The notes under the pieces were generated by a model that was given only the letters and a program-made list of their open reading frames with translations, made no database searches and was not told the origin of the DNA. This document shows, in pieces, positions 16,912 to 30,114 of a stretch of 64,000 bases of DNA. Origin of the DNA: Ferrovaceae bacterium (GTDB lineage Bacteria; Pseudomonadota; Gammaproteobacteria; Burkholderiales; Ferrovaceae); contig DAIDLC010000003.1 of assembly GCA_027449685.1 (NCBI GenBank), positions 84,136-148,135 on the forward strand, read 5' to 3'. Numbering within the stretch: the stretch's first letter is position 1; every line of letters starts with the position of its first letter. The translations under genes and the position numbers were made by a program.

Positions 16912-18753
16912 TTAGCGGCCGCGCAAAAACATACGGTCCAACTCAGCCAGGCTCATCTGGTGCCAGGTAGGTCGACCGTGGTTACATTGATCGGCGCGTT
17001 CTATCGCTTCCATCTGCCGAAGCAGCGCGTTCATTTCGGTGAGGGTCAGCGTTTGATGAGCCCGAATGGCCCCATGGCACGCCATGGTGGCCAGACATTC
17101 GTCGCGCCGCTCCTGGGCCACGCGGGAGGTCCCAAACCGGTCCAACTCGCCCAGTACCTCCTGGACCAGCGCTACGGGGTCGGCCTGGTGCAGCAACGCA
17201 GGCAGGGATCGGATCCCTATGGTCTGCGGCCCCATGGGGGTCAAATGGAACCCCCACTGCGACAGCAGCTGCTCATGTTCCTCCAGTAGAGCCATCCACT
17301 TGGGCTCGGCACGAAACGTTACCGGAACCAATAAGGCCTGAACCTGCAACTGTTCCTGATCCATCCGTGATTTGAGTTGCTCGTAGAGGATGCGTTCGTG
17401 GGCCGCATGAATATCCACCAGAATCAATCCCTGCTGGTTTTGAGCCAGCAAGTAGATGCCATGCAACTGCGCCAGGGCAAAGCCCAGCGGAGGAAGCGCA
17501 GATGGGGATGGGGATGAACCAACCGGAGCGCTGCTCGGAGTGCTGGGAAGTGGCGCTGCAAGCGGTCCAAACAATGCGGCATGAAAACGATCCGGTTCCT
17601 GAATAGCCAACGACTGCTGTCGAGGCATCACGCTCTCCCGTTCTGCTTGGGGCGGATGTACCGAAAAGGAAATACCACTCTTCCCGGGCCCCGGAGTGGG
17701 GAAAACGCTAGCCGGGTGCGATGCCTGTGGTTTGCCAATAGGCTCCAGAGCGGCATCGCTGGAAGGAGAAGTGGTGGCGAGCGCTTTACTCAAACACTGA
17801 AAAACAAAACGGTGCACCGCCTGAGGTTCTCTAAACCGGACTTCGGTTTTGGCAGGATGCACGTTCACATCCAGGCTTTCTGGATCGAGCCGCAAAAAAA
17901 GCACATACGCGGGATGCCGCTGGTGATGCAATACATCCTGGTAGGCCTGGCGGATGGCGTGGGACAGGAGCTTATCCCGCACAAAGCGGCCGTTGACGAA
18001 TAGCGTCTGGGTATCGCGCGTGGCACGCTGATAGGTGGGGCGGGCAATCCATCCTGCAAGGCTCAAAGGCCCCGCGACTTCATCCAGTGACAGGGCCGCC
18101 TGAAAAAACTCCTCGCCCAAAAGACTTCGCACTCTGAGCGCCAAATCCGCCGCAGGCCAATGGCGGATGATCCGGCCGTTATGCTGCAGGCGAAACCCTA
18201 CTTGGGGAAAGGCCAGAGCCAGGCGTTGCAGCACTTCTTCGCAATGCGCATATTCCGTGGCTTCGGATTTGAGAAACTTGCGACGGGCTGGAGTAGCCGC
18301 AAATAAATCCCGTAATTGCACGGTGGTTCCCACATCCCGGGCTGCCGGGCTGACTCCGGAACTGACTCCGGCTTCGATACGAACACTGGCGGCATAAGGG
18401 TTTTCCCGGGTGCGGCTGATCAAAGTCAAATCTGCGACCGCGGCCATACTGGCCAGGGCTTCTCCCCGAAAACCAAGGCTGGCTACCGATTCCAGATCGG
18501 ACAAAGAGCGAATCTTGCTGGTAGCATGGGCTGTCAAGGCCCAGGGAAGTTCTTCGGCGCTCATGCCGTACCCGTTATCTTCCACCCTCAGGCAACGAAC
18601 GCCGCCTTGCTCCAAAGTGACGATAATCTCGGTGGATTGAGCGTCCAAGGCATTTTCCACCAACTCCTTGAGCGCCGAGGCAGGGCGTTCCACCACTTCA
18701 CCGGCTGCGATCTGCGCCACCAGGACCTCATCCAGAAGCCTGATTCGGCTCAT
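16912..18753 (-). CDS. mutL: DNA mismatch repair protein MutL
   Basis: MutL couples mismatch recognition by MutS to strand incision. The N-terminal GHKL ATPase is intact: AAGEVVERPASALKELVENALDA with the catalytic Glu, DNGYGM, and the SLGFRGEAL lid. A proline/serine-rich linker (about residues 340-425) leads to the C-terminal dimerisation domain, which holds LVDIHAAHERILYE, the DxHAxxExxxxE metal-binding motif of MutL proteins with their own endonuclease, as expected in bacteria without MutH. Length 613. The start codon overlaps the amiC stop (ATGA, 18750-18753), so it is coupled to the tsaE-amiC transcript. Confidence 0.97.
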   Translation of the reverse strand: MSRIRLLDEVLVAQIAAGEVVERPASALKELVENALDAQSTEIIVTLEQGGVRCLRVEDNGYGMSAEELPWALTAHATSKIRSLSDLESVASLGFRGEALASMAAVADLTLISRTRENPYAASVRIEAGVSSGVSPAARDVGTTVQLRDLFAATPARRKFLKSEATEYAHCEEVLQRLALAFPQVGFRLQHNGRIIRHWPAADLALRVRSLLGEEFFQAALSLDEVAGPLSLAGWIARPTYQRATRDTQTLFVNGRFVRDKLLSHAIRQAYQDVLHHQRHPAYVLFLRLDPESLDVNVHPAKTEVRFREPQAVHRFVFQCLSKALATTSPSSDAALEPIGKPQASHPASVFPTPGPGKSGISFSVHPPQAERESVMPRQQSLAIQEPDRFHAALFGPLAAPLPSTPSSAPVGSSPSPSALPPLGFALAQLHGIYLLAQNQQGLILVDIHAAHERILYEQLKSRMDQEQLQVQALLVPVTFRAEPKWMALLEEHEQLLSQWGFHLTPMGPQTIGIRSLPALLHQADPVALVQEVLGELDRFGTSRVAQERRDECLATMACHGAIRAHQTLTLTEMNALLRQMEAIERADQCNHGRPTWHQMSLAELDRMFLRGR

Positions 18754-20303
18754 GGCATGAAGGCCATCTGATGCGCCGTAGATTCTGGGAGGGCTGTGGT
18801 CCGAGCACGCACGGGAGTCGACAAAGCCAGATAGTGTTGGATTCCGGCCAGAATGGCCCCCGCCAGTTTATCCTGATATTCCGGTTCGTTCAGGCGCTGT
18901 TCTTCCTGCGGATTGGTAATGAAAGCGGTTTCCACCAAAATGGAAGGAATGTCGGGGGATTTCAGTACGGCAAACCCGGCCTGCTCCACCTGCCCGTGGT
19001 GCAGGACGTTGACCTGATGCAATTGATCGAGCACTGCCCGTGCCATTTTCAGGCTATCGTTGATCGTGGCGGTTTGCGATAGATCAAACAGGGTTTGTGC
19101 CAGATAAGGGTCATGGCGGTTGAGGTTCACACCGCCAATCAAGTCGGAGGCGTTTTCCTGGCGCGCCAACCAACGCGCGGCCACTGAGGTGGCCCCGCGC
19201 TCAGACAGGGCAAAAACCGAGGAACCACGCGCCTCGTGATTGACGAAGGCATCAGCATGCACCGATATGAACAGATCCGCATGCAGCTGATGGGCCTTGG
19301 CGGTACGCCCTTGTAGCGGGATGAAGTAGTCTCCGTCACGAATCAGCACCGCCCGCAAGTTGGGTTGGGCATCGATGTGCGCCTTGAGTCGCCGTGCAAT
19401 CGCCAGGGTCACGTCCTTTTCGTGCGTTCCGGCACTCCCTTGGGCACCTGGATCTTCGCCTCCGTGCCCGGCGTCCACGGCAATGACCAGCGCATGAGGT
19501 GCCATCAAAGACGGTGTTGGTCTTACCGCTGCAGCTTCAGCGGGGTGGCTGGCAAGAGACGATTCTGGCGGTCCCGGCACCGTGGCAGGCTGTGACGTTG
19601 GAGGTTGGGCCGCGCTGTCCACGGCAGCGGGGCCCTGCGTCGCTGCGGCCATGGGCGCACGCGCCAGCGTTGAGGGAGAAGGTGCCAGCGCTGGCGCGTC
19701 GCTTTGGACGGGTGGGCCCGAAGCCAGCAGCACGGGTGAAGTCGTCGCCGCAACCCCCGGGATGGGGATGGGTGCCTTGGGGGCGCTGGTCATGGCCTCG
19801 GGGGGGCTGGCCTGCGCCTCGGGGGGGCTCAGGTTCTGTGTTTGCTCCAACAGAGATTGCAAGGGGTCAGAGGGATTTTGGGGATAAATATCGAGCATGA
19901 GCCGATAGCCATATTTTGCCACGGGCTTTAGCAGGGAGGTACTGGCCGATACCGGCACCTTGAGATCGAAAACCACACGCACCACGCCCGGCTTGAAATG
20001 GCCCACCCGAATATTTCGAATGTAGGGATCATCCGGGTTCACCTGGTGTGCCATGGCCAACAGCGCAGCACTGGCACCCACCCCCTCCAGATCCAGAACC
20101 AGACGCTCCGGATTGGCAATGCTAAACAGGGTACTTTGAATGGCTACAGGCGCTTCGAAGGTGACCCGCGTATACTCCTCGGCCGGCCATAATCGTACCG
20201 ACTCGATACGATAATCGGCCCACACCCGGGGTATGCTCAACGCCATGACCAGCAGGGCCAGAGAAAGAAAAGTGATTAGACGTGGAAGGCACGTTCGAGG
20301 CAT
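18750..20303 (-). CDS. amiC: N-acetylmuramoyl-L-alanine amidase with AMIN domain
   Basis: This periplasmic amidase splits septal peptidoglycan during daughter-cell separation. From ATG 20303 the 517-residue protein has a signal peptide (LITFLSLALLVMALSIPRVWA, roughly 8-28), an AMIN localisation domain (about 30-140), an unusually long Ala/Pro/Ser-rich linker (about 155-275) and an Amidase_3 domain. Zinc ligands and catalytic residues are seen in VDAGHGGEDPG, the HEKD motif, SVHADAF and LVETAFITN. The open frame extends upstream into tsaE, but the signal peptide fixes the start; the 5' end therefore overlaps tsaE by 28 bases. Confidence 0.93.
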   Translation of the reverse strand: MPRTCLPRLITFLSLALLVMALSIPRVWADYRIESVRLWPAEEYTRVTFEAPVAIQSTLFSIANPERLVLDLEGVGASAALLAMAHQVNPDDPYIRNIRVGHFKPGVVRVVFDLKVPVSASTSLLKPVAKYGYRLMLDIYPQNPSDPLQSLLEQTQNLSPPEAQASPPEAMTSAPKAPIPIPGVAATTSPVLLASGPPVQSDAPALAPSPSTLARAPMAAATQGPAAVDSAAQPPTSQPATVPGPPESSLASHPAEAAAVRPTPSLMAPHALVIAVDAGHGGEDPGAQGSAGTHEKDVTLAIARRLKAHIDAQPNLRAVLIRDGDYFIPLQGRTAKAHQLHADLFISVHADAFVNHEARGSSVFALSERGATSVAARWLARQENASDLIGGVNLNRHDPYLAQTLFDLSQTATINDSLKMARAVLDQLHQVNVLHHGQVEQAGFAVLKSPDIPSILVETAFITNPQEEQRLNEPEYQDKLAGAILAGIQHYLALSTPVRARTTALPESTAHQMAFMP

Positions 20304-20773
20304 AATTTTCCGATCGCTGTATGGGGAGTCGCCACCAGCCTTCTTTTTTCCTCCAATAATTCCAGCTCGATGGCCACATCCGCCACAGGCAACCAGACCC
20401 CCGCACGCTGCGGCCACTCTACGAAACACACGCCGGTTCCGGAAAAATACTCCCTGAACCCTGCTTCTTCCAACTCTTCCGAAGAGCCGATTCGATAAAA
20501 ATCAAAGTGATACAAGTATAACCTCGAAACTGCATACATTTCAAGCAGGGCGTAGGTTGGGCTTTTGATCTGTCCCTGAACGCCCAGAGCCCGTAACAAG
20601 GCCCGCACCAGGGTGGTTTTTCCAGCACCCAAAGGGCCTTGCAGGGTAACCAGCAAACCGGGCTGCAGGACGGGAGCCAACTGCTGGGCCCAGTGTTGCG
20701 TGGCCGCTTCGGTGTCAAGACACCATACCAAGGGCGAAGCAGAGGAGGAGCTGGGTAGACAATCAGTCAACAC
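20276..20773 (-). CDS. tsaE: TsaE portion of the fused gene: tRNA t6A synthesis ATPase
   Basis: The last 165 codons of the fused frame encode a complete TsaE (YjeE), the ATPase that supports TsaBD in making threonylcarbamoyladenosine at A37 of tRNAs. The P-loop LQGPLGAGKTTLVRALLRALG, KSPTYALLEMY, YHFDFYRIGSSEELEEAGF and VFVEWP-like CFVEWPQRAG blocks are all present. A GTG at 20773-20771 (or the next codon, TTG) could act as an independent start giving the usual length. Upstream it is continuous with res without a stop codon. amiC and mutL follow, the order usual in betaproteobacteria. The gene is normally essential, so it must still be expressed. Confidence 0.88.
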   Translation of the reverse strand: MLTDCLPSSSSASPLVWCLDTEAATQHWAQQLAPVLQPGLLVTLQGPLGAGKTTLVRALLRALGVQGQIKSPTYALLEMYAVSRLYLYHFDFYRIGSSEELEEAGFREYFSGTGVCFVEWPQRAGVWLPVADVAIELELLEEKRRLVATPHTAIGKLCLERAFHV

Positions 20774-23767
20774 ATCGCGGAGCGAACGTGTCACTACATA
20801 TCTCGCAGGATTTTCCATTACAGCCAGCGCCTGGAAATGCGCTTTGCCGCATTCGATCTTGGCATATTCTTTGTCGCGCAAGTCATCCGTGAACAGGCTG
20901 CTTTTAGTTTCCACCACAAAATATAGGCGTTGCGCGCCATCCTGCTCTACCAGCACCGCCCAGTCCGGGTTGTAGCTGCCCAGCGGGGTAGGCACCTTGA
21001 ACCATCCGGGGAGTTTGGCATACAGCTTGATGGCCTCGTTCTTTTCCAGCGCATCGGCAAAGTCGCGCTCGGTAGTGGAGTCGTACGCCACGTGCTCATA
21101 GACGGACTTGGCGGTATCCATCAGCATGTTCTTGAGATAACCGGTGAGCTCTTCCTGACCGAACAACTCCTGGGCATAGAAGTGATCGTCGCCCAACTTC
21201 TGGTACTTGATGCCATCCACCAGCGCCAGCCGCTTGCAGCGGTTGATCGTCTCGGCAACCAGCTCTATGAACTGCTGTGGATTGCGCTTGAAATCATCAA
21301 GCCTGCCACCGCCCGTCAGGATGTTGACGATTGTGCGACGGGTAAGCTGGGTTCGATCCTGCAAATCGGTGAGCAGGTCCGGTAACTCAACGTCTGTCTC
21401 GTCCAGGACAACGGTTGCCGCACCGGCCTTTTCCATCGCCTCGACGCCAGCCTTACCGATAGCAATGTCGGCCTTGCGCCATTGCAGGCGCGCCTTGGCG
21501 ATGGCCGGGGCTTTCTGTAAAGCTGCTATGCAGTCCGACACGAGCTTAGGGTTGTCGAACTGCACGCGGTACGTGGTCTGGTGCTTGATCCGATCCCACA
21601 GCCCCTTGAACTCGGCGCTGAGGTAGATGGCCTTGCGTACCGGCACTTGCTTACGCTCGTCCGCGTTCTTGATCTCCAGACGGCCAGAAACCTTGCGCAG
21701 TACCTCGGCGATTTGACCGCGTAGCGCATCGAACTCTGCCGGCAGCGCCAGCGTTCCTTCTTTCAACGCCGTCTTCAGCGAATCCTGTACCTTGCCGGAG
21801 GCCGAAATGTGGCCGGCGGCTTTCAGGTGTTCCCACAGCACCTTCGATTGATCAACGCCCAAGAGCACAGCCTGGCCATCGGGCGCTGTCACGGCAATGG
21901 CCGCAAACTGGTGTTGCTCGACGATACCAAAGCGTATGCCCGTGTCGGCCTCGATTTCCTTCTGCAGGTTCTCGGCGAATTCTTCATAGTTTTCGGTAGC
22001 AATGACAGTCAACGTGTTGACTTCGAAACCACGAACGCGATCACCATTCTGGTTCACGCACAGACGCAATCCCCGACCGATGGTCTGGCGGCACTCACGC
22101 TCGGTGCCCATTTCGCGCAGGGCGCAAATCTGGAACACGTTGGGATTGTCCCAGCCTTCCTTCAGCGCCGAGTGGGAGAAGATGAACTTCAGCGGCGTCT
22201 CGAAAGCCAGCAGCTTCTCCTTCTCCTTCATGATCAGGTTGTAGGCCCGCTCGGCGTTTTCGCGGCTGCCTGCGTTGCTTTCGCTGGTGTCCGTCCAGCC
22301 GCCTTTCTTGTCGATGGAGAAGTAGCCGTTGTGTACTTCCTCAGCGGCACTCGCCAGATCAATTTCGGCAAACAGGCTCTGATACGCAGGCAGCTTTGCC
22401 GCGCGCCGGTATTCCTCTTCAAAGATGCGGGCGTAGTCGCCCTTGACCGGAGTGCCGTTGGCGTCGTACTGGCGGTACCTGTCTACTGCATCTATGAAAA
22501 ACAGCGACAACACCTTGATGCCCAGCGGGCGCAGGCGCTTTTCCTTGTCCAGGTGTTCCTTGATGGTGCGGCGGATCATTTGCCGCTGCACGGCCAAGGC
22601 ATCGACATCGCCATGCGCCTGGCCCAAGGCCAAGTAGGATTCCCCACCGGGATAGCGCAACTCCAGAAACTCTTCGCCTTTGGCGGTATTGATCTCGCCA
22701 ATGCGAAAGTCGGCATAGATGGCTCTTTTGGCGAGATGCTCCAAATCATCGCCATCGCACACCGTGATCTCCTGCCGTTTCACACCGCTGACCGTGGCCA
22801 CGTCGAGCTCGACCTTGGCGCTGACCGTGCCGCGCTTGCTGCTCACCGACACCAGCCGAACGAATGGCTTGTTGTGTGCATCCTCCACGGTGGCTGATGC
22901 CACTTCGATTTGCTTCACCAGCTTGCGCTCATAAGCATCCACGGCATCGAGGCGAAATACCCTGTGGTGCTGGTCCACGTGGGTAGCTGAATAGCGCAGC
23001 GTGCAGAGCGGATTCATCGCATCGAGTGCGGTTTTGCCCGCACCCGTCAGGCCGCCATCCACGCTCTGCGGTTCGTCGACGATCACCACGGGACGGGTCG
23101 CCTTGATCAGATCGATGGGCTTTTCGCCGCCGGTCTTCTCGCTGTCCTTGTACAGATTGTTCACATCCTTCTTGTTGATGGCGCCTACCGTGACCACCAT
23201 GATCTGGATGTTCGAGCTGGTGGCGAAGTTGCGCACCTGCCCGAGCTTGCCGGAGTCGTAGAGGAAGTAGTCGAAGGGCACGCCAGCGTAGAGCCCCTTG
23301 AAGTGTTCCTCCGTGATCTGCAAAGATTTGTAGACCCCTTCCTTGATTGCCACCGACGGCACCACGATGACGAACTTGGTGAAACCGTAGCGCTTGTTCA
23401 ACTCGAAGATGCTGCGCAGGTAGACGTAGGTCTTGCCGGTGCCGGTTTCCATCTCGACCGTGAAGTCGCCGGAAGCCAGGGTGCTGGAGGGCGACAGGCC
23501 GCCGCGTAACTGGATGTCGGCGAGGTTCTGGTGCAGCTCGTCATCGAGAAGCGTGAGGCGATTGCCGACGCCCAGGTCCGATTCGGCCATGCCCAACGTC
23601 ATTTGCTGCGGCACGCTGCCGGGGAACATATCGTCGGCCACGACAGGCGGAGCCTTCATCGTCACCGTGAATTCGGTACGGCACACCTCCTGGCCACGGA
23701 ACAGGTCGCAAACAGCCTCGATGGCCTGCAACTGGTAGTCGAGGTTGGGCTCGAAGTGCAGTTTCAT
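20276..23767 (-). CDS. Type III restriction enzyme Res subunit fused in frame to TsaE
   Basis: A single 1163-codon frame. Residues 1 to about 998 form a type III Res subunit: helicase motif I METGTGKTYVYLRS, motif II VDEPQ, helicase motif VI ECRQTIGRGLRL, and a C-terminal PD-(D/E)xK nuclease seen as NPDWAVL...YFVVETKSSLF. The Res part reaches its expected end (near ARYVVTRSLRD), and the frame then runs straight into a complete TsaE with no stop. Res cuts DNA with Mod after ATP-dependent movement between two sites. The start ATG overlaps the DUF1016 stop (ATGA). Either one long protein is made or the tsaE part is also started internally. A sequencing error at the junction cannot be excluded. 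Confidence 0.85.
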   Translation of the reverse strand: MKLHFEPNLDYQLQAIEAVCDLFRGQEVCRTEFTVTMKAPPVVADDMFPGSVPQQMTLGMAESDLGVGNRLTLLDDELHQNLADIQLRGGLSPSSTLASGDFTVEMETGTGKTYVYLRSIFELNKRYGFTKFVIVVPSVAIKEGVYKSLQITEEHFKGLYAGVPFDYFLYDSGKLGQVRNFATSSNIQIMVVTVGAINKKDVNNLYKDSEKTGGEKPIDLIKATRPVVIVDEPQSVDGGLTGAGKTALDAMNPLCTLRYSATHVDQHHRVFRLDAVDAYERKLVKQIEVASATVEDAHNKPFVRLVSVSSKRGTVSAKVELDVATVSGVKRQEITVCDGDDLEHLAKRAIYADFRIGEINTAKGEEFLELRYPGGESYLALGQAHGDVDALAVQRQMIRRTIKEHLDKEKRLRPLGIKVLSLFFIDAVDRYRQYDANGTPVKGDYARIFEEEYRRAAKLPAYQSLFAEIDLASAAEEVHNGYFSIDKKGGWTDTSESNAGSRENAERAYNLIMKEKEKLLAFETPLKFIFSHSALKEGWDNPNVFQICALREMGTERECRQTIGRGLRLCVNQNGDRVRGFEVNTLTVIATENYEEFAENLQKEIEADTGIRFGIVEQHQFAAIAVTAPDGQAVLLGVDQSKVLWEHLKAAGHISASGKVQDSLKTALKEGTLALPAEFDALRGQIAEVLRKVSGRLEIKNADERKQVPVRKAIYLSAEFKGLWDRIKHQTTYRVQFDNPKLVSDCIAALQKAPAIAKARLQWRKADIAIGKAGVEAMEKAGAATVVLDETDVELPDLLTDLQDRTQLTRRTIVNILTGGGRLDDFKRNPQQFIELVAETINRCKRLALVDGIKYQKLGDDHFYAQELFGQEELTGYLKNMLMDTAKSVYEHVAYDSTTERDFADALEKNEAIKLYAKLPGWFKVPTPLGSYNPDWAVLVEQDGAQRLYFVVETKSSLFTDDLRDKEYAKIECGKAHFQALAVMENPARYVVTRSLRDVLTDCLPSSSSASPLVWCLDTEAATQHWAQQLAPVLQPGLLVTLQGPLGAGKTTLVRALLRALGVQGQIKSPTYALLEMYAVSRLYLYHFDFYRIGSSEELEEAGFREYFSGTGVCFVEWPQRAGVWLPVADVAIELELLEEKRRLVATPHTAIGKLCLERAFHV

Positions 23768-24825
23768 GGCAAATCTCCCGCGTCACGCTCTCTGGCCTGT
23801 TCCCTCATTTCCTCGATAGCGGCTCGTTCCCGCTCGATTTCGGCACGCAGTTCATCCTCGGAAGGAAGTACCAAACGGTACTTGCTGGCAAAAAGCTGCT
23901 CGCTTTCGTTCAGCACCGAATAGCGCGCCACCGCATGATCCTTGTGCTCGCAAAGCAGAATGCCCACCGTCGGGTTGTCGTCCGCGCCGCGCCGCAGGTC
24001 GTCGTACATGCGCACGTACATATCCATCTGCCCGATGTCCTGATGGGTGAGCTTGCCGGTCTTCAGGTCGATCAGCACGAAGCACTTGAGCAGGTAGTTG
24101 TAAAACACCAGGTCGATGTAAAAATCCTGCGTCTCAGTGCTGATGCGTTGCTGGCGCGCGACGAAGGCGAAACCCTTGCCCAGCTCCAGCAAAAAGCCTT
24201 GCAGCTTGTCCATCAACGCTTGTTCCAGCGTAGACTCCAGCAGCCTGCCCGCCCCCGGCATCCCCAGAAACTCCAGCATCACCGGGTCGCGCACGAACTC
24301 ACGCGGCGTGGCGGGCAATGCCGCCACGTTGGCCTGTGCCTCCGCCGCTACGCCCGTCTTGTCCTTGCTCAGCAACAGCCGATCGTAATACAGCGTGCCG
24401 ATCTGGCGGTCCAGTGCCCGCGAGCTCCAGTTCTGCGCGGCGGCTTCGTTCATGTACCAAAGCCGGGCCTGCTCGTTGTCCACCCGTAGCAGCACCCGGT
24501 AGTGGGTCCAGCTCAATTCGTGACGCAGCGCGTCACGAATTGGAAACGCCTGATAAAACAGCCGCATGTAGCGCAGATTGGAAGCATCGAAGCCCTTGCC
24601 GAACTCACGGGTCAAGCTCTCGGCCAGTTTTGGCAGCAACTGCTTGCCATAGGCGGCTCGCGCCTCGCCGCCCTGTTCAAACTCCACGATGTGGCGACCG
24701 ATCTCCCAGCAGGTCTGCACCTGCACCATGTCCACCGCGCGTAAGGCCCGCTGGCGGCCGTGCCGGATCAGGCCGCGCAAGGCATCCAGCAAGCCCGACA
24801 GCGGGGCGGCATTCAGGTCGGCCAT
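23764..24825 (-). CDS. DUF1016 (YhcG-type) PD-(D/E)xK nuclease
   Basis: The 353-residue product has the two YhcG domains: an N-terminal DUF1016 region with ELSWTHYRVLLRVDN..AR.WY..EAA..NWSSRALDRQI and a C-terminal PD-(D/E)xK-like nuclease domain with YIDLVFYNYLLKCFVLIDLKTG, where Asp and the Asp-x-Lys are the likely metal-binding residues. A charged C-terminal helix (residues about 325-350) ends it. Genes of this family often accompany restriction-modification and other defence loci; their activity is poorly known. It starts one base after mod and overlaps res by four bases, so it is part of the same operon, perhaps an accessory nuclease. Confidence 0.9.
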   Translation of the reverse strand: MADLNAAPLSGLLDALRGLIRHGRQRALRAVDMVQVQTCWEIGRHIVEFEQGGEARAAYGKQLLPKLAESLTREFGKGFDASNLRYMRLFYQAFPIRDALRHELSWTHYRVLLRVDNEQARLWYMNEAAAQNWSSRALDRQIGTLYYDRLLLSKDKTGVAAEAQANVAALPATPREFVRDPVMLEFLGMPGAGRLLESTLEQALMDKLQGFLLELGKGFAFVARQQRISTETQDFYIDLVFYNYLLKCFVLIDLKTGKLTHQDIGQMDMYVRMYDDLRRGADDNPTVGILLCEHKDHAVARYSVLNESEQLFASKYRLVLPSEDELRAEIERERAAIEEMREQARERDAGDLP

Positions 24826-24826
24826 G

Positions 24827-26752
24827 TCACAGACTCCGCACGTTGTTAATGCCGTGCTGCTCCAGAATGGCGGCGAGGTTGGTCTTGGCTACGTCATCGG
24901 CGAAGGCGCTGTCGCGGAACACGCAGGTGGTGTCGCCTGCCGGTACAAGTTCTTCATGCCAGGCAACAATGCCTTGCGCCAGCGGTTCCACATCGTCGCG
25001 AGTGATCGTTTCGGCCAAACAGGCCATCAGCACGCCGCCGCCCACCAAATGCACGTCGCGGCCCGCGATCGAGCGCTTCTCGATGGGCACGCACAGATCG
25101 AGGCCGAGCTTGAGCAGCAGCTCGTACAGAATGTCGGATTCAGTGCGCCCCTCCACCAGATGATCCTGATGAGCGAACAGCGTTTGTTCCAGATCGGCGG
25201 GGTTGGGGTTCCACGCGCGGAGGTTGGAATGGTCGAGCTTGAAGACACGGAAACCGGTGTCACCGGCAAACATCGGATTCTCGGCCTTGACCTTGGCTCC
25301 CGCACGACGCAGGCGCTCCTTGGTCAACTCGGCGATGGTTCTAGGCTTTCCTAATTGTTCGCAGAAAAGTGCAGCGCTCTTTTGGTCGTTATTATCTAAG
25401 GATAGTGGTTCCGGCAACTGCACCATGACATATCGCCGTTGCCCCAGGTCTTCAGCATTTGCTTTCAAAACGGCGTGGGCGGTTGAACCAGAGCCTGCAA
25501 AGAAATCTAGAACAATTGCATCCTTGGGAGCTGCAATAGTGAGCATTCTCTGGATCAAGCGGATAGGCTTGGGCGTAGAAAACACTTTCTGACCAAGCAG
25601 ACCAGAAGTTTCTTTTTGTGCTTCGTCGTTGTGGCCGCAATCCTCGAAAGTCCACCAGGTTGGCGGAACGATCCCTTGCTGAACCTCCTTAAGATATCGT
25701 TTCAGGCGAGGCTTCCGATAGGACTGATCTGGTCCCCAGTACAGCCGCCCCTCTCTTTCAATTTCTTGGTGTTTCTCCTGAGAGTAACGCCATACGGCGA
25801 ACTCCTCGGGCCAGACATCTTCACCGGTACGGGGGTGCCGGATTGGATACCAGAGAGTTGGGCGTTCATCCTTCGATTTGTTGCTAACGTAATTGTCTGA
25901 TGCCCATTCACCTCGGGGATCATTGTCGAGATTTGAATAGCGTGCGTTTTGTTCCTCAGTACGCGGGAGCAAACCGCGAACAAACCCTTCTGACTTACGA
26001 TAGACGAGAATATGATCGTGCATAACGCCAATGCCGGGATCGTCATTTGCGACTGCATATTTTTTCTGCCAGACCACATTGGCGACAAAATTTTCTTCTC
26101 CGAATATCTCATCGCCTATACGGCGCATGTTCGCCACTTCGGTATCGTCGAGCGTCAAGAACAACGCACCATCTTCCCGCAGCAGATTCCTCGCCAGCTT
26201 CAACCGCGGATACATCATGTTCAGCCAGTCGGTATGAAACCTCCCGCTGGATTCGGTATTGCTGCTGATCTTCTGACCGCCTTCCACCTGTCCGGTGAGT
26301 TCCAGGTAGTTTTTGATGTTGTCCTGGAAGTTATCGGGATATACAAAATCCTTGCCGGTGTTATAGGGCGGGTCGATGTAGATGAGTTTTACCTTACCCG
26401 CATAGCTCTTCTGCAAGAGCTTCAGCACCTCCAGATTGTCGCCCTCGATCATCAGGTTCTGGGTAGTGTCCCAGTCCACGCTGTCTTCCGGGCAAGGGCG
26501 TAAGGTACCCGTGCTGGGCGTGAGCGCCAGTTGCCGGGCGCGGCGCTTGCCGTGCCAGTTGAGGCCGTACTTCTCGTCGGCATCGGTAATGGTCTTGTCG
26601 CCAACCAGTTGGTTGAGTACGTCCACATTCACCGCCACACCATCAGGGCCTTCGGTGATCAGCTCGGGGAATAGTTCTTTGAGCTGTTCGATATTCTCGG
26701 CAACAAGGTCAGCGGACTGGGCCTCCGGGCTTGTCACGTCGATTTTTTTCAT
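24827..26752 (-). CDS. Type III restriction-modification DNA methyltransferase (Mod)
   Basis: Mod is an adenine-N6 methyltransferase that also supplies sequence recognition for Res. In the 641-residue product the catalytic DPPYN (in LIYIDPPYNTGKDF) comes before the SAM-binding DFFAGSGSTAHAV, the order of the beta class of methyltransferases. The variable region between, roughly residues 190-390, would be the target-recognition domain. ATG 26752 was chosen over ATG 26764 because GGAG sits six bases before it. It follows the DUF4391 remnant after 14 bases and precedes the DUF1016 gene by one base. The recognition site cannot be read from sequence. Confidence 0.95.
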   Translation of the reverse strand: MKKIDVTSPEAQSADLVAENIEQLKELFPELITEGPDGVAVNVDVLNQLVGDKTITDADEKYGLNWHGKRRARQLALTPSTGTLRPCPEDSVDWDTTQNLMIEGDNLEVLKLLQKSYAGKVKLIYIDPPYNTGKDFVYPDNFQDNIKNYLELTGQVEGGQKISSNTESSGRFHTDWLNMMYPRLKLARNLLREDGALFLTLDDTEVANMRRIGDEIFGEENFVANVVWQKKYAVANDDPGIGVMHDHILVYRKSEGFVRGLLPRTEEQNARYSNLDNDPRGEWASDNYVSNKSKDERPTLWYPIRHPRTGEDVWPEEFAVWRYSQEKHQEIEREGRLYWGPDQSYRKPRLKRYLKEVQQGIVPPTWWTFEDCGHNDEAQKETSGLLGQKVFSTPKPIRLIQRMLTIAAPKDAIVLDFFAGSGSTAHAVLKANAEDLGQRRYVMVQLPEPLSLDNNDQKSAALFCEQLGKPRTIAELTKERLRRAGAKVKAENPMFAGDTGFRVFKLDHSNLRAWNPNPADLEQTLFAHQDHLVEGRTESDILYELLLKLGLDLCVPIEKRSIAGRDVHLVGGGVLMACLAETITRDDVEPLAQGIVAWHEELVPAGDTTCVFRDSAFADDVAKTNLAAILEQHGINNVRSL

Positions 26753-26766
26753 TCTCTTCTCCATCT

Positions 26767-27096
26767 TTATACATCAGAGCTGCTGGCGCGCTGCGGCCAG
26801 CTGGCCCGCACGCGCCTGAGCGCGAGGTTCAGTTCCACTTGTCGTGCCAGTTGCTTTTCCTTGGTGGCCTGCATTCGCAAGCGGGTCACCTCAAGTTGCA
26901 GCCGCTCGTATTTCTGCAGCGCTTGGCGGCGAATTGCAGTTTGGTGGAGGCTGCTAGCGACTTTGAATGTGCCAGCGATTCTAGACGCCAGCAAGGTTTG
27001 TACAGTATCCATCCAGTCTTGATAGAGGCCAATCAGTGTAACGTGGCGCTGACAGGACAGGTTCAAGAATTGCATAAAAGCATTGCTGGGTGGCAA
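26767..27096 (-). pseudogene. DUF4391 gene remnant, 5' end missing
   Basis: The visible 109 residues (from a TTG at 27096) match, from memory, only the C-terminal half of DUF4391 proteins, which are about 210-250 residues and usually sit next to mod in type III systems. Recognisable pieces are LYQDWMDTVQTLLASRIAGTF, an AIRRQAL..YERLQLE helix and KEKQLARQVELNLALRR. The in-frame codon TGA occurs four codons upstream of the TTG and no other frame upstream restores the N-terminal half. I therefore read it as truncated at the island's right edge, not a short functional gene. Function of the family is unknown. Confidence 0.65.
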
Positions 27097-27276
27097 GAGG
27101 TGAAATCAGGTTTGGCCGATGCTTTTGCCCAGAGTCCCTCCAACCATACACGTTGCTTGCGAGGTAGTGAGAGCATGGCAAATCCACAGTGGTAACAAAG
27201 GCGCCATGGCACCAACCCAGGAAGTCCGGGTCAAGGATTACCCAAAAAAATTAACGCAGCCTGCTAGAATCCTACC

Positions 27277-28407
27277 ATGTCCCGCGACTTGCACGCACCC
27301 CTGCTCCACCAGCTCAAACAAGATTTGCTGGAACGGGCTCGCCGGGCGGGCTTCGATCAGGTCCGGGTCGGTACGTCTGATGACTTGTCTGGGGCCAAAG
27401 ACTGGCTGGATACCTGGTTGGCCCGAGGCCTTCATGGTGAAATGGGCTTCATGCCACGCCATGCCCACTTGCGGGCGTCCCCCCAACGTTTGCATCCGGG
27501 AACCGTGCGCATCCTGAGCCTGGGAATGTCCTACCTCACTCAGCCCCCGGCCCAGGCCTTGAAGGCGCTGGATGACCCCCATCAGGGGTATATCTCCCGT
27601 TATGCCCTGGGACGCGATTATCACCGGGTGCTACGACAACGTCTAAAGGAATTGGCCCAAGACCTGCAAGAACGGGCACATCATTTGGGCTGGCACACCG
27701 AAAACCCGCAGGCCGCTGGGTTTAGCGCCCGGGTATTCACCGACAGCGCCCCCGTCATGGAAGTGGAACTGGGGCAAAATAGCGGTCTGGGCTGGCGCGG
27801 CAAGCATACCTTGTTGTTGAACCGCACGGCGGGGTCGTTCTTTTTTCTGGGGGAAATTTTTACCGACATTCCTCTACCCATCGACCCCCCCAGTACCACC
27901 CAGCATTGCGGTACTTGTCACCAATGCCTGACCCTCTGCCCCACCGGGGCCATTCTTGCCCCTTATCAGCTGGATGCCAGGCGCTGTATTTCCTACCTCA
28001 CCATCGAACTGAAGGGGGCCATCCCCGAGTCTTTGCGCCCTCTGATTGGAAACCGGATCTACGGCTGTGATGATTGCCAGCTGGTATGTCCCTGGAACCG
28101 CTTTGCACAACTGGGCAAGGTGGCCGACTTTGCTCCCCGCAAAGCGCTGGATGGCACCACTCTGAGCGACTTATTGGCCTGGGATGCCAGCACCTTCCAG
28201 CAGCGTCTGGCGGGTTCTCCCATCCTGCGCATAGGGCATGAACGCTGGTTACGCAATATCGCCGTCGCGCTCGGCAATGCCCCAGCCCAGGCGCGCAGTC
28301 TGACAGTCCTGGCGCAACGGCAATCCCACCCATCCGCTCTGGTGCGTGAACACGTGAACTGGGCCCTGCAGCGACTGCAGGCTGCCGGTCCACTACGTGC
28401 AGAATAA
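27277..28407 (+). CDS. queG: Epoxyqueuosine reductase
   Basis: QueG reduces epoxyqueuosine to queuosine at tRNA position 34, using cobalamin and two [4Fe-4S] clusters. The 376-residue product shows the ferredoxin-like set HCGTCHQCLTLCPTGAI and the later YGCDDCQLVCPWNRF, together with LGRDYHRVLRQRLKEL in the N-terminal half and C-terminal HEAT-like helices. Normal length. It diverges from tsaE in related genomes; here the restriction island lies between the two. Dependence on cobalamin is a family property and gives the only hint in the window of a cobamide requirement. Confidence 0.96.
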   Translation: MSRDLHAPLLHQLKQDLLERARRAGFDQVRVGTSDDLSGAKDWLDTWLARGLHGEMGFMPRHAHLRASPQRLHPGTVRILSLGMSYLTQPPAQALKALDDPHQGYISRYALGRDYHRVLRQRLKELAQDLQERAHHLGWHTENPQAAGFSARVFTDSAPVMEVELGQNSGLGWRGKHTLLLNRTAGSFFFLGEIFTDIPLPIDPPSTTQHCGTCHQCLTLCPTGAILAPYQLDARRCISYLTIELKGAIPESLRPLIGNRIYGCDDCQLVCPWNRFAQLGKVADFAPRKALDGTTLSDLLAWDASTFQQRLAGSPILRIGHERWLRNIAVALGNAPAQARSLTVLAQRQSHPSALVREHVNWALQRLQAAGPLRAE

Positions 28408-28488
28408 CTACGGAAAATCAAGGACTCCCGCCCCGGGAACAATTTGAGTTACACTACAAAATCCAGTTTTTTCGCCTTCGTGGAATCC

Positions 28489-30114
28489 ATGAACTCACTG
28501 CACCGCCTGATTTTTTTGCTCCTGTTGTGGTCGTGCTCACCCATCTTGTTTGCCCTGGAGGGCATTCCCTCCACTGCGCCCGCCCTGCCGCAAGCTTTAT
28601 CCTCCAGTCTTCCTGCGCACCGCACCTTTCTGATGCCGGAAGAAGCCTTTACCCTGCAGGTTGCCGTCAACGCTGGCAAGGATTTCACGGTGCGATTCAA
28701 TCCCGCACCGGGCTACTATCTTTATCGGGATCGCATCAAGATTCACGCCGTTCCCGACCAGGCCGCCTTCGTCCTTCGATTTCCCCCTGCCGAGAGCAAG
28801 CAAGACCCCAGTTTTGGTTTGGTATGGGTGTACCACCATCCTTTCGAAGTGGCTTTCACGGCAGCCAACCCGTTGCCCGAAACGCTGGCCATCACCTATC
28901 AGGGCTGTGCCGAGCAGGGCATCTGTTACCCACCCACGACGCTCGATTTCACCCGTGTGGCAGGCAGCACCACGTATCGCTCCAATGGCCTGGAAGATAC
29001 GGTTTCCAGCGCGCCTAGTAGAGATAGCGCCAACCCGATAGCCTTTGCCAATTATTTGAAAGATGCCAAGCCCCTGTGGGTTCTTGCCAGCTTCTTTGGT
29101 TTTGGACTGCTCCTGGCCCTGACTCCTTGTCTGTTTCCCATGATCCCGATTCTCTCTGGCATCATTGCCGGACAGGGAAGTCAGATCACCAAATCCCGTG
29201 CCTTTGGCTTGTCCCTGACCTATGTATTGGGCATGGCCCTAACCTATGCGGCCGCAGGGGTTCTGGCCGGACTCTCCGGCACGCTTCTGTCCAATGTCCT
29301 GCAAACGCCCCCCGTACAAATCGCCAGTGCCCTATTGTTCGTAGCGCTTGCGCTGTCCATGTTCGACCTGTACCAGCTGCAGTTACCCCTGGCTTTGCAA
29401 AACCGTCTCAATGGGGCTTCTGGGCGACTCCCGGGGGGCAAGCATCTGGGCGTGGGCTTGATGGGGGCGCTCTCAGCACTGGTGATGGGTCCTTGTGTGG
29501 CGGCTCCTCTGGCTGGAGGACTCCTGTATATTGCCCAAACCCGGAACGTGGTGCTGGGCGGGAGTGCCCTGTTTGTCATGGCCCTGGGCATGGGCTCGCC
29601 GCTATTGGCCATCGGCACTTCGGCTGGCGCGTTATTGCCCCGTGCAGGCCATTGGATGGTCTGGGTGAAACGATTTTTTGGGGTGCTGCTGCTGGGGGTT
29701 GCACTGTGGATCGTCATGCCTTTGCTGGGTTCTCGCACAGGAGCGGGCGCTCCGGCATTCACCCCCATTCACTCCAGTGCCGAACTGGATGAGGCCATCC
29801 ACCGGGCTTCGGATCAGCATCGCCCCGTGATGCTGGATTTTTATGCCGACTGGTGTGTCTCGTGCGTCGAAATGGATCAGAAGGTATTTTCCCAGCCCGA
29901 CATCAAAAATTTGTTGGGTCGTGGCCTCCTGTTACGGGCAGACGTGACCCGCAATACCCCAGAAGACAAAGCATTGCTGAACCGCTTTGGTTTATTCGGT
30001 CCCCCGGGAACCCTGTTTTTTGATTCCCGCGGCCAAGAGCTGGAAAACGCCCGGCTGGCAGGGTATGTGGCAGAGCCTCAGTTCAAGGCGCATTTGCAGC
30101 GTTATTTCCAGTAA
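28489..30114 (+). CDS. dsbD: Thiol:disulfide interchange protein DsbD
   Basis: DsbD carries electrons from cytoplasmic thioredoxin to periplasmic disulfide isomerases and cytochrome c maturation. From ATG 28489 (541 residues) there is a signal peptide (LHRLIFLLLLWSCSPILFA), an N-terminal periplasmic domain with the cysteine pair in GCAEQGICYPP, eight membrane segments with the two conserved cysteines in TPCLFPMIPILSG and GPCVAAPLAGG, and a C-terminal thioredoxin domain with DWCVSCVEMD. The open frame starts upstream at TTG 28444, but that would bury the signal peptide. It converges with rsgA with a nine-base gap. Confidence 0.95.
   Translation: MNSLHRLIFLLLLWSCSPILFALEGIPSTAPALPQALSSSLPAHRTFLMPEEAFTLQVAVNAGKDFTVRFNPAPGYYLYRDRIKIHAVPDQAAFVLRFPPAESKQDPSFGLVWVYHHPFEVAFTAANPLPETLAITYQGCAEQGICYPPTTLDFTRVAGSTTYRSNGLEDTVSSAPSRDSANPIAFANYLKDAKPLWVLASFFGFGLLLALTPCLFPMIPILSGIIAGQGSQITKSRAFGLSLTYVLGMALTYAAAGVLAGLSGTLLSNVLQTPPVQIASALLFVALALSMFDLYQLQLPLALQNRLNGASGRLPGGKHLGVGLMGALSALVMGPCVAAPLAGGLLYIAQTRNVVLGGSALFVMALGMGSPLLAIGTSAGALLPRAGHWMVWVKRFFGVLLLGVALWIVMPLLGSRTGAGAPAFTPIHSSAELDEAIHRASDQHRPVMLDFYADWCVSCVEMDQKVFSQPDIKNLLGRGLLLRADVTRNTPEDKALLNRFGLFGPPGTLFFDSRGQELENARLAGYVAEPQFKAHLQRYFQ

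Follow-up and report, generated by a model that had tools for sequence, protein, structure and literature searches.

Organization of the locus

The window (the whole stretch of DNA analysed here, 64,000 nucleotides) contains a restriction island next to tsaE. On its minus strand, one frame (23767..20276; ATG at 23767, stop at 20278-20276) runs for 1163 codons and encodes the type III restriction subunit Res followed by TsaE. The uninterrupted frame reported in a sequence-only reading of this DNA is exact in its coordinates and has no internal stop. The features of the region are listed in Table 1.

Table 1. Features of the res-tsaE region (positions in the window).
Feature	Position	Strand	Remarks
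mutL	16912..18753	-	PF08676, PF01119
amiB	18750..20303	-	PF01520, PF11741; likely ATG at 20303, overlapping the 3' end of tsaE
tsaE part of the fused frame	20276..20770	-	Residues 1000-1163 and stop; PF02367, TIGR00150; N-terminus like P0006; model like TsaE structures
Ser-rich stretch LTDCLPSSSSASP	20732..20770	-	Putative linker from Res to the TsaE fold
GTG-TTG at the join	20768..20773	-	TTG 20770-20768 at the native tsaE ATG position; candidate internal starts
res part of the fused frame	20771..23767	-	Residues 1-999, with helicase motifs and a PD-ExK endonuclease domain; PDLC03647, PF04851, PF19778; sequence relative of EcoP15I Res 4zcf_C
YhcG/DUF1016 PDDEXK nuclease gene	23764..24825	-	Between mod and res; PF06250, PF17761, PDC-S02 (PADLOC candidate)
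mod, type III methyltransferase	24827..26764	-	Full length; PDLC03634 over residues 12-644 of 645, profile 4-620 of 621
DUF4391 gene remnant	26767..27096	-	Last third only, with a stop in the stretch before it; PF14335, profile 149-230 of 232
Left island edge	27097..27262		Absent from sister genome G002; 27099-27151 has a 92% copy at a G001 contig edge
queG	27277..28407	+	Divergent ancestral neighbour, G001-like allele; TIGR00276

The Res half matches the type III Res profile PDLC03647 over residues 1-997 (1386.8 bits), with RE_endonuc (PF19778) at residues 887-982 and an additional match to PF04851. NCBIfam PRK15483 covers residues 1-982 with a score of 368, which is below its cut-off of 564. 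The sequences GTGKT, DEPQ, QTIGRGLR, and NPDW..ETK are present, and we take these to be the helicase and PD-ExK motifs of type III Res proteins. Both the SF2 helicase motifs and the C-terminal PD-ExK domain that define a type III Res were found, and a type III Mod is encoded alongside (24827-26764, PDLC03634).

The TsaE half matches PF02367 at residues 1018-1142 (128.8 bits, cut-off 26.6) and TIGR00150 (130.1 bits, cut-off 60.1), while its score against the E. coli-specific PRK10646 (121.4) is below the cut-off of 246. GAGKTT, DFYR, and VEWP are invariant in a 12-row alignment. By our own mapping, these presumably correspond to T43, Y82, E108, and W109 of the E. coli protein. These four residues are named as part of the ATP site in PMC4330362.

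Loci of Res relatives encode Mod in 75 of 80 cases and, upstream, DUF4391 in 50 and SNF2 in 46, with many loci cut short; YhcG lies between Mod and Res in three (L042, L062, and L086). The operon in the window has retained Mod, YhcG, and Res but neither SNF2 nor the greater part of DUF4391, so the core needed for restriction may be functional despite the loss of the accessory genes. Within the window's family, a Res endonuclease domain was found in 5 of 32 genomes, including the window's own. At the other end of the fused frame, the likely start of amiB lies within the end of tsaE (20303-20276), as it also does in the sister genome G002. Given this position, translation of amiB may be coupled to that of tsaE, and hence now to that of the restriction operon.

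The island occupies the ancestral queG-tsaE gap

In G002, a genome of the same genus, queG and tsaE are divergent with start codons 45 bp apart, and tsaE encodes a stand-alone protein of 164 aa with 83% identity to the TsaE half. Coming from queG, similarity between G002 and the window breaks off at 27263, to return at 20716 in tsaE. The gap between these flanks is 85 bp in G002 compared to 6546 bp in the window, the last 54 being the diverged start of tsaE. The inserted DNA (~6.5 kb) comprises the DUF4391 remnant, Mod, the YhcG/DUF1016 nuclease, and Res. In 18 of 19 loci from relatives (the best-scoring of 38 relatives with a TsaE match), queG-tsaE-amiB is present without the insert; in the remaining locus the contig ends before queG.

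Since G002 and the other relatives show the empty site, the tsaE gene of the window is the native copy with an island placed in front of it. This reverses the earlier suggestion that a mobile defence gene had captured tsaE: the gene has kept its ancestral position, followed by amiB and mutL, and the newcomer is a 5'-truncated restriction operon lying between it and queG. A mobile gene carrying tsaE off is ruled out, as tsaE is still at the ancestral site. A gross assembly chimera is thought unlikely, as both island ends lie inside the one queG/tsaE gap known from relatives.

Structure of the join

In 78 of 80 Res relatives the stop falls between -1 and +25 residues of the position equivalent to window residue 999 (median +5), and in the other two the contig ends first. 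The nearest Res protein has the C-terminus ..RSVDDVLTEVAKA, where the window reads ..RSLRDVLTDCLPS; in a longer view of the join, these are ..ENPARYVVARSVDDVLTEVAKA and ..ENPARYVVTRSLRDVLTDCLPSSSSASPLVW, respectively. On the other side, the N-terminus of P0006, the best-scoring stand-alone TsaE, is MTDCLPGSSPASPLVWCL compared to LTDCLPSSSSASPLVWCL in the window, with 15 of 18 residues identical. Because the P0006 N-terminus aligns in this way, L1000 (TTG 20770-20768) is at the position of the native ATG, and the sequence is TsaE's own from the second codon.

The DNA of G002 is less informative at this point. Identical bases per 9-base bin number 7, 7, 5, 1, 4, and 5 over the first 54 bases from 20770, 1 in the bin preceding 20770, and 6 in the bin one further back. 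At the true offset, 10 of 14 bases of the tsaE start agree, compared to 9 of 14 at each of the two best wrong offsets. With similarity this patchy, the G002 DNA by itself would not place the join, whereas P0006 does.

Judged by alignment to close relatives, Res is without about its last five residues and its stop, and TsaE is without its ATG only. The sequence-only reading had held that nothing needed was lost; this stands insofar as both proteins are essentially whole, and needs amending for the short losses just described. Its placement of TsaE at a normal N-terminus agrees with the P0006 match and with the TTG standing exactly at the place of the ATG. The GTG/TTG pair at 20773-20768, put forward as possible internal starts, is also where it was said to be.

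Some letters are common to both sides of the join (TTGACGGA and TTGACCGA in some Res relatives, TTGACTGA in the window), which would fit microhomology joining. A random join would be in frame in about one case in three, so the in-frame state alone is unremarkable. Chance does not explain the wholeness of both proteins, nor the position of the island with the ancestral queG and tsaE on either side.

Origin of the island

Sites that agree with one relative only change their allegiance along the left flank. In queG (27698-28400), 125 such sites agree with G001 and 23 with G002, while beyond 29600 the counts are 110 and 305 (Fisher 9e-36), with the preference alternating in between. The stretch 27263-29600, which contains queG and the start of a dsbD-like gene, is a mosaic of G001-like and G002-like sequence. 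Relative to G002, dS is 1.04 for queG and ~0.3 for both the tsaE core and amiB.

In the first 18 residues of TsaE, 11 sites agree with P0006 only and none with G002 only; in the other 146 residues the numbers are 9 and 19 (Fisher 1.5e-4 for the contrast). This weakly suggests a foreign origin for the start of tsaE, the comparison being one of few sites in a hypervariable stretch and, for P0006, at the protein level. As the adjoining queG, and possibly the first tsaE codons, stem from another lineage, recombination probably brought the island in. Most simply, queG, the island, and the start of tsaE came together from a sister lineage, in which case the join could predate this strain.

At the left island edge, a 53 bp stretch (27099-27151) is 92% identical to a G001 contig edge (L128:9-61). 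Similarity is lost at the same base in both copies, and the stretch is present as a single copy in the window's own genome. The genes beside the G001 copy read to us like bluB and cobT. The 53 bp stretch may be the end of a mobile or repeat element. The left-end element had no match in Rfam, the left end had no match among the plasmids searched that would indicate plasmid origin, and exact left-end and join patterns gave 0 matches in viral contigs. Repeats of note that could mark the insertion were found within neither island end; between the two ends, the longest common word is 5 bases in direct and 6 in inverted orientation, the direct word being no longer than in shuffled sequence. Neither a Res endonuclease domain nor island DNA was seen in G001, of whose genome 70% was covered.

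Rarity of the Res-TsaE protein

The TsaE part was used to search ~5.8 billion proteins, with lengths restricted to ~640-2035 aa; this search, which can miss distant TsaE, returned four matches: TsaE-AmiB (P0002), Nnr-TsaE (P0003), TsaE-TsaB-RimI-TsaD (P0004), and P0005. The last was set aside as a TsaE fusion, as it looks like a wrong-frame translation. No other Res-TsaE was present among these proteins at the sensitivity used. When residues 700-1060 were used as the query, none of the best 120 of 7566 Res proteins was longer than 1023 aa or had a precomputed PF02367 match. tblastn found Res relatives in plasmids and phages; in the best 20 of 315 plasmid records and the best 8 of 46 phage records, none of the matches extended past residue 1012. 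A C-terminal TsaE was found in 0 of the 78 loci with the Res stop in view.

We also searched 369 genomes for TsaE and obtained a match in 359. Among the matches listed, the longest frames besides the window's own (G203, 1082 aa; G183, 655 aa; G136, 596 aa; G131, 527 aa) were rejected, since by eye they are GC-rich wrong-frame translations before an ordinary TsaE. The titles and abstracts listed from the open-licence literature on TsaE, t6A, type III restriction fusions, essential-gene fusion stability, and restriction-modification addiction do not describe a Res-TsaE protein. The claim that no such protein has been reported is supported within these protein, locus, and literature searches, and the recommended search for the same junction in relatives gave the insert-free and Res-only loci described above. 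Res-TsaE is a single case from one genome; it is new as a protein, and falls within known TsaE fusions and restriction islands.

Fused or free TsaE

We compared anti-Shine-Dalgarno pairing at the candidate starts. Values are +0.7 kcal for GTG 20773, +0.3 for TTG 20770, and -7.4 for the Res ATG, compared to medians of -3.9 for 47 called starts and -2.2 for random sites; called starts are those of the longest frame, so these values are rough. As neither in-frame start at the join has a Shine-Dalgarno sequence, translation as a fusion is favoured. With no stop codon separating res from tsaE, termination-reinitiation is not possible. No sigma-70-like tsaE promoter was found on the queG side, in the window or in G002.

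A structure model was made for the C-terminal 194 residues from an alignment of TsaE relatives alone, two wider alignments having put TsaE rows on Res. From about residue 1010 onward (first strand at 1013), the TsaE fold has high model confidence, and the model is similar to YjeE/TsaE structures, among them 1htw (E 2.6e-18) and chains from T. maritima TsaBDE complexes. Low confidence at residues 970-1009 says little because the alignment had no Res rows. TsaE tolerates fusion partners in other proteins, as in Nnr-TsaE (P0003), where it is also at the C-terminus. On balance, we favour the reading that the island has placed res in frame with the native tsaE and that TsaE is likely made as the C-terminal domain of a ~130-kDa Res-TsaE protein.

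The main alternative, rather unlikely though worth weighing, is that despite the joined frames most TsaE is a free 18-kDa product started at TTG 20770 or GTG 20773, with Res-TsaE a by-product or cut at the linker. The TTG is exactly at the native start position with the GTG directly before it, and the tsaE start of G002 is also without a good Shine-Dalgarno sequence (-2.2, equal to the random median). With that start weak too, and 24 of 47 called starts above -4, internal starts may be used even without such a sequence. However, both codons lack anti-Shine-Dalgarno pairing, and a restart would have no stop codon between res and tsaE to follow.

We consider it improbable that a small sequence error masks a stop or frameshift at the join and that res and tsaE are separate in reality. 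The sequence comes from a single draft (1.86 Mb, 100 contigs, 83% complete), and res is only a few codons short of its usual stop. Against this, the tsaE frame fits P0006 from the second codon and the Res frame fits its relatives up to the join; the location of both island ends in the one known gap speaks against a gross chimera.

Under the favoured reading of a Res-TsaE fusion, the join would have arisen by illegitimate recombination and reached this strain by homologous recombination together with the sister-lineage queG allele. Since the native ATG and leader of tsaE are displaced and the join lacks a Shine-Dalgarno sequence, ribosomes coming through res would be the main readers of tsaE, and the in-frame join would then be what kept TsaE. 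The Ser-rich N-terminus of TsaE itself could serve as a linker that lets the fold reach TsaB-TsaD.

Possible dependence of the cell on the fused TsaE

The search for a second tsaE that the sequence-only reading called for found one TsaE only in the 83% complete draft. PF00814 has two matches (320.2 and 81.8 bits), TsaD and presumably TsaB. TsaC/Sua5 (PF01300) gave no match in the same draft, while 14 of 14 control genomes were positive, and the missing gene is probably in the absent 17% of the genome. Since a draft without TsaC lacks pathway genes, a second tsaE could be missing too.

PMC4330362 describes tsaB, tsaD, and tsaE as essential and as universal in bacteria except for a few with reduced genomes. 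For the fused copy, dN/dS relative to G002 is 0.17 in the TsaE core, compared to 0.21 for amiB and 0.12 for queG, although the divergence behind the TsaE value may for the most part be older than the insertion. There are exceptions to essentiality, as tsaE is dispensable in some bacteria. That the fusion is dead or dispensable, its work being done by another tsaE that the draft lacks, has the missing 17%, TsaC included, on its side and is nevertheless very improbable given the intact ATP-site residues, the low dN/dS of the TsaE core, and the single strong TsaE at this locus in relatives.

The idea of addiction, in which host survival would be tied to the fused frame, is a plausible hypothesis. 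If TsaE is read mainly from res, frameshift or nonsense loss of res is predicted to cost TsaE as well, perhaps together with the overlapping amiB, and because of that cost the restriction gene would be shielded from decay. More tentatively, and with some doubt, we propose that the acquired nuclease may act as the obligatory N-terminal half of the only TsaE, such that its decay by frameshift or nonsense mutation would be lethal, and that homologous recombination in queG and tsaE could carry the locus from one sister lineage to another.

Comparison with known systems

If TsaE is the tail of Res, a defence gene would be bonded to translation fidelity by one reading frame. This would be a natural counterpart of the engineered fusing of a costly gene to an essential one.

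The island resembles type III restriction-modification systems (EcoP15I-like Mod/Res and SNF2-DUF4391-Mod-Res operons) in that Res and Mod match their profiles at full length and are encoded close together. It differs in having no SNF2, little of DUF4391, YhcG between mod and res, and TsaE on the C-terminus of Res. As a member of the TsaE/YjeE family, the ATPase of bacterial t6A synthesis, the TsaE half passes curated cut-offs and has the same fold and the native locus before amiB. However, TsaE is usually a separate protein of ~150-170 aa, while here it follows 999 Res residues and lacks its own ATG. If TsaE is made as the tail of Res, it would work with a 110-kDa N-terminal partner, which would bear on how TsaE docks on TsaB-TsaD.

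In other fusions (P0002, P0003, and P0004), TsaE is likewise chained to another protein, C-terminally in P0003. The partners there are frequent neighbours or pathway members, whereas the partner in the window is a horizontally acquired nuclease subunit. In restriction-modification addiction modules (post-segregational killing), loss of the unit costs the host, as it would here. Death in those systems comes through under-methylated DNA, while the bond proposed for Res-TsaE would be an essential domain in the same frame, and the restriction gene could escape decay by a route other than post-segregational killing.
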